From positions 1 through 37,763 of the forward strand of contig JAHFQA010000006.1 of the NCBI GenBank assembly GCA_023266475.1: a DNA stretch of 37,763 bases. The letters are read 5' to 3'. The DNA comes from Candidatus Woesearchaeota archaeon. GTDB taxonomy: Archaea > Nanobdellota > Nanobdellia > Woesearchaeales > GW2011-AR4. Position numbers and translations under genes: made by a program. Under the pieces are notes generated by a model. The model was given only the letters and a program-made list of their open reading frames with translations. It made no database searches and had not been told where the DNA came from. Shown in pieces: positions 16,777 through 22,540 of the stretch; positions within the stretch are counted from its first letter, which is position 1; each line of letters begins with the position of its first letter.

Positions 16777-16814
16777 ATATTACAAATACTTTAATAATTA
16801 AAAAGGTGATTATT

Positions 16815-17570
16815 ATGCCAGTAGACGAAGAAAGAATTGTTAAGAAAATGGTTGCTGAAATAGCTGATTCAAATGAGAGGTTTATGGGCAATCCATCCTC
16901 AGATATAGAGAATTTTAAAAGAATTGTGCCAGTTCTTCTTGAGAAGGGAATTGACAATGTCAACCTTTCAATGTTTGATGGGGTTACCAAAAGCAAGCTT
17001 CTCAATGCATTGGGAGAAGAGTATATAAGAAAAGGTAACATGAATGACTCTGTCAAAGCCTTTATACTGGCTGGAAACAGGCCAAGGCTTGTGGAAGTAG
17101 GCGAGCATTATGAAGAAGTGAGCATGTTTGGGAATGCAATTGATACTTACAGGCTTGCAGATGCAAATGACAGATTGCTTAAGATTGGAAAAAAATGCCT
17201 TGAAAACGGGCATTTTGCTGATGCAATCAAGGCATTTAGGCTCTGCAATGATATTGAAAATCTGACAAAAGTTGGTGATGAGTGCTTCCAGAAGGACAAA
17301 TGGGACTATGCAATTGAAATCTTCAGCGCTGTCAACAACACCCACAAGCTGGTTGAAATTGGGGACAAGTGCCTTAAAGAAAGGCAGATTGGTTATGCTT
17401 CAAAGGCTTATGAGCTTGCTCATGACAAAGACAAACTCAGCGGATTAGGAGACGTCTGCCTTAGGGAAGGGCTTTTGGCCACTGCACTTAAGTCGTATAC
17501 TGCAGCAGGAAACGACATGATGGTCCAGTTCATCAGGGAAAACTTCGGCAACAAGCTTACAAGCTATTAA
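16815..17570 (+). CDS. Helical-repeat (alpha-solenoid) protein with 29-residue repeats
   Basis: The 251-residue protein has an N-terminal helical part (1-62) followed by six tandem repeats of exactly 29 residues starting at L63, L92, L121, L150, L179 and L208. The pattern is L-x-x-(I/V/L)-G-(D/K/E)-x-C-L-x-x-x-x-x-x-x-A-(I/L/S)-K-x-(Y/F), for example TKVGDECFQKDKWDYAIEIF. Each repeat should form a helix pair, giving a solenoid scaffold. The period is shorter than TPR (34) and closer to clathrin/COPI/IFT-type alpha-solenoids. It lies downstream of ftsZ but 206 nt away and with its own promoter region. Ribosome binding site GGTGAT supports ATG 16815. A partner-binding or coat-like role is inference only. 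Confidence 0.75.
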   Translation: MPVDEERIVKKMVAEIADSNERFMGNPSSDIENFKRIVPVLLEKGIDNVNLSMFDGVTKSKLLNALGEEYIRKGNMNDSVKAFILAGNRPRLVEVGEHYEEVSMFGNAIDTYRLADANDRLLKIGKKCLENGHFADAIKAFRLCNDIENLTKVGDECFQKDKWDYAIEIFSAVNNTHKLVEIGDKCLKERQIGYASKAYELAHDKDKLSGLGDVCLREGLLATALKSYTAAGNDMMVQFIRENFGNKLTSY

Positions 17571-17593
17571 ATTTATTTTTTGATTTTAAACTA

Positions 17594-17681
17594 TAGGAAA
17601 TAACTTTAATTTTCGGATACATTTGTTATTTCCTAATAAGCAAATCACAATAAAAAGTTACGGATATTAGTGTGATTTGCT
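17594..17681. ncRNA. Twin paralogous stem-loops with CGGATA in both loops
   Basis: Hairpin 1: TAGGAAATAAC (17594-17604) / GTTATTTCCTA (17625-17635), 20-nt loop. Hairpin 2: AGCAAATCACA (17639-17649) / TGTGATTTGCT (17671-17681), 21-nt loop. Both loops contain CGGATA near the middle. Aligning the stems shows they are copies of each other with two compensated base-pair changes (a G-C pair to C-G and an A-T pair to C-G), which argues that the pairing is maintained. They lie between the solenoid gene and the coiled-coil gene. Could be a small RNA, an mRNA leader structure, or a protein-binding DNA palindrome. Confidence 0.6.
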
Positions 17682-17745
17682 ATAATTAGATGTAAGGATA
17701 AAAAATCAGATTAAACATTATCAAATAAACAGAGTTTTGATAAAA

Positions 17746-18144
17746 ATGGAACAACAAATGGATGCTTTCACTCAAAAAAGATTTGAAATTATGGTTGAGA
17801 TGGCTACCAAGAAGCTTCAGCAGGAAATTAATTCTCTGAAGGAAGCATTTAATTCATTAAATGGTGAACTAACTTCAGTAAAAAGCCAAATGTCAAGAAT
17901 GCAGTTTCAGCCGCAGCAGCATGCTGTGCAGAGGACATTAACTGATGAGCCGCCGCAAGTTGAAAATTCCACTATCCAGCCAAAAAAGGAAGTAAAGATT
18001 GTTGATTGCAGGCCTGACAATGAGAGAAAGCAGGAATTTGTAAGCGGCGCTGCAAAGAACGCAGATCCTATAAGGCCAAGGTACGGCGATTACGAGCCAA
18101 AGGATGTAAGCATTGACAAGTTCTTTTATTTTGGAAGGAAATAG
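17746..18144 (+). CDS. Coiled-coil protein of unknown function
   Basis: The 132-residue protein opens with a heptad-rich helix (about 1-60; KRFEIMVEMATKKLQQEINSLKEAF), then a Gln/Pro-rich flexible linker (about 62-100) and a conserved-looking C-terminus, YEPKDVSIDKFFYFGRK. The last motif looks like a docking peptide. The ATG at 17746 is used; the track starts at an in-frame TTG three codons earlier. It is preceded by the twin hairpins and overlaps the convergent neighbour by 19 nt. I do not recognise a family beyond coiled coil. Confidence 0.65.
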   Translation: MEQQMDAFTQKRFEIMVEMATKKLQQEINSLKEAFNSLNGELTSVKSQMSRMQFQPQQHAVQRTLTDEPPQVENSTIQPKKEVKIVDCRPDNERKQEFVSGAAKNADPIRPRYGDYEPKDVSIDKFFYFGRK

Positions 18145-21403: not shown

Positions 21404-21475
21404 CTGCGGACGCAGGTTTTCAGAACTTCGTAGCTGAAAATGAACTTAACAAGAATTTCTATAAGTTAGTTGCAA
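21404..21475. repeat. Dispersed repeat, copy 2, left of cassette 5
   Basis: Same sequence family and orientation as 410-475: CTGCGGACGCAG, then TTTTCAG-N10-CTGAAAA (a perfect 7-bp inverted repeat in this copy), ending at a GCAA before the outer arm of cassette 5. It starts on the base after the right outer arm of cassette 4. Confidence 0.7.
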
Positions 21476-22540
21476 TTTTTTCGGGGCAAAGACGAGATTG
21501 GGGCAATAGAATACGAGAGCTTGACAGCTGACGGCAATAATTTTAAATATACCTCCTTATTTCTATCTATAGTAATGGATGCTAAAACATATTCACCTAG
21601 TGGAGCAAGTCCAACAACTTCTAATGAAGAACAAGGATTCTTTAGAAAGCACAAATACGGTTTAATTCAGACGGGATTGTTCACAGCATGCGGAGGGATG
21701 ATGTATGGGATGCTTACATTATTGATGGGGCAGATTGTTGTTAATAGTTCAGAAGTCTATGAGTATCATAATCCAAGAGCAGTTGAGCAAAGGACTCAAA
21801 ATAGGAGAGGGAATGTAAAGAAAGATGCAGTTCTCACTTTGATGGATAAAGTTGAGCCCTATATGATGCCAATAGTTAGAGCCACAGAAGCTCCGTGGAG
21901 AAAAATGAGTTATGTAATGCCTGAACATTATAAGCAAGCAAGAGCTAAAGCATTCCAAATTGCAGGAATTGATGAAAATAACCCATTGCATGATAAAAAA
22001 AGATTTGATCTTTACAGACAACTTGGATTTGCAGTTTTAAGAGATGAAGATGGAAGCAGAGGAATTTATATTCCTTTCAAAGTTTTGAAAGACTTTATCG
22101 AGAAAAATTCTTCATTTAGAAATCCAGAATGGGACCAATTGCTTGAACCAGAGACTACTTCAGGTGGAAAGTATACAGGAACTTTAATGGGTAAAGTGTT
22201 TCACAAAGCCGACTCAAAAGCTCAAGGTGGTAATGAAGATGGGGTTGCCGATAATTTAGAATGGAACAGAGCTTTGAAAGCAATGGGTTATACTACTGTT
22301 GATGACATTATCGAGGATATAATCCAAAAAGTAAAAGCCAATAGTCCTGAATTAAATGCCGAATTAAGACAGACAATTAGAAGTGTAAAAAAAGGCGATA
22401 AAATAGCTGATTTTGATACAGGACTTCCAACAAGAACGTGGGAATCCTATCTACAGATGAAGTAATTATTTAATTCTGTTGCCCCTTAATGTATTTTACT
22501 TTATTGTGCTTCGCACTTTATTTACTTTGCCCCAAAAAAA
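21476..22540 (+). mobile_element. Cassette 5: single membrane-protein gene between bipartite inverted repeats
   Basis: Outer arms TTTTTTCGGGGCAAAG (21476-21491) and CTTTGCCCCAAAAAAA (22525-22540) match at 15 of 16. Inner arms GGGGCAATAGAAT (21500-21512) and ATTCTGTTGCCCC (22473-22485) match at 12 of 13. Spacers are 8 and 39 nt; the right spacer holds hairpin GTGC-TTC-GCAC (22506-22516). A 20-nt sequence starting TTGTGCT and ending CGCACTTTATTT in that spacer is also found at 521-540 inside the left part of cassette 1 with one mismatch. The interior has one gene (21575-22465). Confidence 0.65.
21575..22465 (+). CDS. Single-pass membrane protein with EF-hand-like segment, unknown function
   Basis: From ATG 21575 the product is 296 residues. 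A hydrophobic segment at about 28-56 (YGLIQTGLFTACGGMMYGML) is the only membrane helix, after a short polar N-terminus. The large soluble part is mostly helical and contains GGNEDGVADNLEW, which keeps positions 3, 5, 6, 9 and 12 of an EF-hand loop but has Gly at position 1. The track's start at 21470 is a TTG inside the repeat; TTTAAATATAC (21541-21551) is a TATA box about 28 nt before ATG 21575, giving a leaderless transcript. It is the sole cargo of cassette 5. Family unknown to me. Confidence 0.65.
   Translation: MDAKTYSPSGASPTTSNEEQGFFRKHKYGLIQTGLFTACGGMMYGMLTLLMGQIVVNSSEVYEYHNPRAVEQRTQNRRGNVKKDAVLTLMDKVEPYMMPIVRATEAPWRKMSYVMPEHYKQARAKAFQIAGIDENNPLHDKKRFDLYRQLGFAVLRDEDGSRGIYIPFKVLKDFIEKNSSFRNPEWDQLLEPETTSGGKYTGTLMGKVFHKADSKAQGGNEDGVADNLEWNRALKAMGYTTVDDIIEDIIQKVKANSPELNAELRQTIRSVKKGDKIADFDTGLPTRTWESYLQMK

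Follow-up and report, generated by a model that had tools for sequence, protein, structure and literature searches.

Between two genes of a woesearchaeotal contig (JAHFQA010000006.1; the window is the whole stretch of 37,763 nt analyzed here) stand two adjacent hairpins of similar build. The question raised by this locus is whether the fold serves a neighboring gene or has another origin, and what keeps its arms complementary. A first-pass annotation had described the hairpins as tandem copies with compensatory stem changes and a conserved loop, and had taken the covariation as evidence that the fold matters.

Two hairpins in an intergenic region

Hairpin 1 (17594–17635, plus strand) has an 11-bp stem (17594–17604/17625–17635) and a loop of 20 nt, and hairpin 2 (17639–17681, plus strand) an 11-bp stem (17639–17649/17671–17681) and a loop of 21 nt, with a linker at 17636–17638; stem search and RNA and DNA folding agree on these coordinates, and the hairpins are just as the first-pass annotation described them. 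The differences reported between the stems, G-C to C-G and A-T to C-G, are both present. Perfect stems of at least 11 bp with loops of 3–25 nt occur four times in the window, compared with zero to three times in 12 first-order Markov resamples, none of which (0/12) had a pair of such stems spaced 10 nt or less apart. The minimum free energy of the region is −25.2 kcal/mol when folded as RNA (z −5.8) and −18.6 when folded as DNA (z −7.5), and both predicted folds consist of exactly the two hairpins. A scan of the window against Rfam returned nothing at gathering score, nor did a tRNA/tmRNA search. Upstream lies a repeat/solenoid-like ORF (16806–17570, plus strand; its true start may lie further upstream), downstream a gene at 17746–18144 (plus strand; the ORF is listed from a TTG at 17737, the ATG being at 17746). 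Both are outside the hairpin-bearing element and are kept in congeners that lack it.

The hairpins belong to a multi-copy element

Of 58 relatives searched at the DNA level together with the own assembly, 13 gave matches, some of which were weak; the own genome scored 14 near-identical copies, a number that a pattern count raised to 25. Twenty-three of these are identical over 93 bp, including the terminal TAs; of the other two, one differs by a substitution and the other by a single-base indel. Such a burst is very recent. Identity stops sharply at TATAG...CTATA. In all 25 copies, the base before the left TA is T or C and the base after the right TA is A, which indicates a YTAA target with duplication of TA. 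The first-pass extent (17594–17681) was slightly short: the unit is 89 bp long (17594–17682, plus strand, TAG...CTA), with a duplicated TA on the left (17592–17593) and on the right (17683–17684). The copies adjoin unrelated genes, in both orientations relative to them, and 24 of the 25 sites are intergenic according to ORF calling.

The flanking gene pair is present without the element in at least 14 congeners; in 12 aligned intergenic regions the element was absent, and in the other congeners the flanks match while the alignment passes over it. The empty site in a congener keeps a single TA (AAACTA-ATAGAGGCAAG); in genome G009 (locus L173), where the junction is readable (most other congener sites are too diverged for base-level reading), it reads AAACTA-ATAGAGGCAAGAATAAG, against AAACTA-ATTAGATGTAAGGATAA. 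With the element and one TA removed, the window itself gives AAACTA-ATTAGATGTAAGGATAAA. The first-pass annotation had named as its refutation a lack of stem and loop in relatives with the same gene order; these relatives lack both altogether, and the hairpins are not tied to the neighboring genes. Judged from its sequence, the element is not a regulator of the adjacent genes, for which the hairpins have no evident role, but parasitic mobile DNA whose folded design is unusual. Two copies in G000:C57 (at 26644 and 27464; L203 and L204) have the same flanks and lie ∼820 bp apart, which may reflect a local duplication or an assembly effect.

Two inverted ends, not tandem copies

The left terminal inverted repeat (TIR; 17594–17619, plus strand) consists of the tip TAGGAAATAAC and the inner box TTAATTTTCG (17606–17615, plus strand), which is nearly invariant in the family and is proposed as the core for transposase recognition. 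The right TIR (17657–17682, minus strand) contains the box CGGATATTAG (17661–17670, minus strand; reverse complement CTAATATCCG), TTAATWWTCG when compared across the family. Loop 1 holds the left box, and loop 2 holds TTAATWWTCG on the opposite strand. What had been described as tandem copies are two TIRs of one mobile element; because a hairpin looks the same read from either end, the inverted relation of left and right was mistaken for a tandem one. The motif CGGATA does occur in both loops (17614–17619 and 17661–17666), but family comparison makes its identity there a mutational coincidence: loop 1 mostly reads CGTA or CGGA and loop 2 CGAA or CGAT, the two differing because they are the inner halves of one inverted repeat. 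The double occurrence most plausibly arose by independent mutation, from CGTATA in one loop and from CGAATA in the other, the "CGGATA loop" being a mutated portion of the inverted TTAATwwTCG box.

The ends match IS630-type insertion sequences

A left-end scan of GTDB genome contigs returned ∼95 places, nearly all in records of Woesearchaeota, Pacearchaeota, Aenigmatarchaeota, Diapherotrites, and Nanoarchaeota; in some of these places, the matched left end belongs to an insertion sequence (IS) that carries a gene. At L078, the left end of which (TATAGTAAATAACTTTAATTTTCGTA) matches the left TIR of the element, an IS630-family transposase is encoded in two frames (PF13358, NF033545). The profile matches for L078/L151 have E values of 6e-25 (PF13358) and 7e-28 (NF033545), each half alone being just below the curated cut-off. 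The TIRs of this IS630 agree with the family consensus at 25/26 positions on the left and 22/26 on the right. The right end comes from a separate locus, L151, and was not contained in the search pattern; it matches the right TIR of the element at 20/26 bases, counted by eye from TATAG to CGTA. At L147, a complete relative with 65% identity in the DDE part sits in a tyrosine recombinase gene, the frame of which closes, by reading, with one TA kept; this is the signature of transposition by Tc1/mariner/IS630 elements (ISY100), which have TA duplication, TIRs, and a DDE transposase with two HTH motifs (PMC2170065). The best-matching IS ends belong to other genera. Short, non-coding, present in many copies, flanked by a TA duplication, and sharing its TIRs with autonomous IS630, the element is, with high confidence, a miniature inverted-repeat transposable element (MITE) of the IS630/Tc1-mariner type; the genome that carries it is woesearchaeotal (DPANN).

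A search of the own assembly, which is 88% complete, turned up no IS630 transposase. Mobilization in trans is therefore inferred, by a gene that escaped assembly (a frequent fate of multi-copy IS), that has since been lost, or that resides elsewhere. Acting in trans, the IS630-type transposase would recognize the inner boxes (TTAATwwTCG), cleave at the TAG/CTA termini, and insert the element at a YTAA site, with duplication of the TA.

Several other candidates for the partner were rejected. The IS630 genes of G004, G017, G009, and G027 have different TIRs, and the copies in G149, considered as autonomous elements, turned out to be MITEs. A 957-bp interruption of a copy in G004:C60 is an IS481-like IS inserted in the linker (L009, 2023–2949; duplication CCTAAT; assigned by reading). 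The transposase genes at L078, L147, and L143 are split in two frames, either by programmed frameshifting or by decay.

Distribution of the family

Among 371 genomes drawn evenly from the phylum, 21 hold the element and none the reversed control pattern; such patchy occurrence is as expected of a mobile element. Pattern matches in bacterial sequences (L060, L083, L093, and L098) lacked a matching right end and appear fortuitous, and no copies were detected in the viral contigs searched. In G020:C37 (L010, minus strand), another twin-hairpin sequence, TCAAAAATCACAA...TTGTGATTTTTGAGCATGCTCGGAAATCG...CGATTTCCGA, lies between the element halves at 21474–21567 of the contig; this sequence sits inside the first loop of a copy and was seen in L010 and L036.

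Covariation of the tips and their internal copies

When 25 distinct elements were compared, the twin-hairpin structure paired in 90.5% of the cells, compared with 77.6% for shuffled and 33–50% for slid alignments, the inner arms having been placed by best complement, which biases slightly toward pairing. The covariation score was 0.318, versus 0.093 after shuffling, and was reached in 0 of 500 shuffles, although these numbers are not probabilities because the sequences are related to one another. Cells with both partners changed numbered 68, against 18.8 expected. The covariation is thus real, spread over many subfamilies, and stronger than first claimed. G-U pairs make up only 3 of 840 stem cells; this near absence speaks against RNA-level selection as the main cause of the covariation and most likely places that cause at the level of DNA. 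There are 11 distinct 9-nt tips on the left and 15 on the right; a tip agrees with its own internal inverted copy at 8.6–8.75 of 9 positions, whereas left and right tips agree at only 6.5 of 9. What is kept, therefore, is the pairing of a tip with its internal copy and not that of TIR with TIR. This inverted copy of the outer tip (11–15 bp), placed just inside the box, lets each end fold on itself and is specific to the MITEs: the ends of the autonomous IS lack tip hairpins (best internal complement 5–7/11).

The cause of the covariation is probably to be sought at the DNA level, in template-switch repair, in the demands of a transposase substrate, or in both, rather than in selection on RNA. 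Most simply, template switching during replication, which is known to make and mend inverted-repeat stems (PMC8794818), would re-perfect the arms after changes in the tip. In its pure form, in which the hairpins are mutational products of a real MITE and have no function, this explanation merits somewhat less than an even chance. It draws on a documented mechanism (PMC8794818, PMC7202029), accounts for the scarcity of G-U pairs, and fits a multi-base change within a single genome, G069, where TCGGACATAA became AAGGACATAA and the partner arm was altered alike. However, the process would have to operate at both ends and in numerous lineages, and the same design recurs in a second IS630-related MITE family with other ends (see below), which is easier to understand if the design is useful. 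Perhaps there is additional selection, tip-box-tip being a better substrate for the transposase. That tip-box-tip, an end whose tip recurs inverted on the inner flank of the binding box, is a functional DNA design, on which IS630-type transposases of DPANN archaea act better, is conceivable but rather doubtful.

Selection at the RNA level on the hairpins of a real MITE is less likely still. The hairpins would be stable in any transcript and might, by processing or termination, keep the element hidden in transcripts of the host, a role proposed for NEMIS/Correia elements and RUP; neisserial MITEs cut by RNase III provide a precedent (PMC2229807). The scarcity of G-U pairs and the copies lying in either orientation to genes speak against it. 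That the hairpins are a conserved structured RNA of the upstream or downstream gene, be it a riboregulator, a 3′-UTR, or a processing element, is very improbable: the strong RNA fold (z −5.8) and the compensatory changes would fit, but the element is missing from the orthologous loci, which already refutes it as a locus-specific element, its 25 copies lie near unrelated genes in both orientations and are intergenic in 24 cases, and it has no Rfam match and almost no G-U pairs. Equally improbable is an element of the IS200/IS605 type (REP/PATE), mobilized in single-stranded form by a hairpin-recognizing Y1 transposase; two subterminal hairpins, small size, and dispersed copies recall such elements, but REP/PATE have neither TIRs nor target duplication, whereas here TIRs, a TA duplication, and an end-for-end match to IS630 ends are present. 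The family also warns that compensatory changes in a hairpin are, on their own, not evidence of a functional RNA.

Comparison with known elements

RUP (107 bp, associated with IS630-Spn1) resembles the woesearchaeotal MITE in being short and AT-rich, with TA ends and target and IS630-type TIRs (PMC2229807, PMC3049150). The TIRs of RUP, however, pair with each other (PMC3049150), whereas in the woesearchaeotal element the partner of each end is its own internal copy: the minimum-free-energy fold consists of two separate hairpins, and left and right tips agree less well (6.5/9) than a tip and its internal copy (8.6–8.75/9); the host, moreover, is an archaeon. Correia/NEMIS elements of Neisseria are likewise MITEs with TIRs of ∼24 bp, TA ends, and a stem-loop transcript, but their stem-loop joins the 5′ end to the 3′ end, and twin tip hairpins are not described (PMC2229807). 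Compared with both, what is new is that the ends fold on themselves. The CIR repeats of Caulobacter and Brucella also have two stem-loop arms, a linker, and a motif in the loop (PMC2229807), but the motif is a DNA-methyltransferase site (GANTC) in a different context, the comparison here covering the arms and the loop motif. IS630/ISY100 of the Tc1/mariner group share TA duplication and TIRs (PMC2170065), with matching ends in L078/L151 and L147, but as autonomous elements they carry a gene and lack tip hairpins. Nezha, a cyanobacterial MITE resembling ISNpu3, is another proposed trans-mobilized MITE (PMC3049150), likened here by description. A literature search, the coverage of which left out many journals, found no description of a MITE in Woesearchaeota/DPANN. 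Because it combines a very recent burst to 25 copies with many diverged subfamilies and with autonomous IS that match, the family is a clean natural data set for asking why the arms of inverted repeats covary, by selection on the fold or by template switching on DNA.

A second family with the same plan

A second family was present in G069 (Woesearchaeota 33_21; L124, L053, and L215–L233), with the tips TATAGTAAGTGAC and TATAATGTCGGACATAA and 32 pattern matches. It follows the same twin-hairpin plan, and its ends resemble those of a different IS630, G017:C26 (L143), which belongs with this family and has a 29% identical transposase. As far as sequence comparison goes, recurrence of the plan in two families favors some use of the fold, short of proof. 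If tip-box-tip is indeed functional, the design would have evolved more than once, since the two families each have their own IS630 partner, and would be maintained by coordinated change of both arms. At L217, L105, and L127, the left hairpin of the second family is joined to differing right halves; elements may exchange hairpin units with one another.
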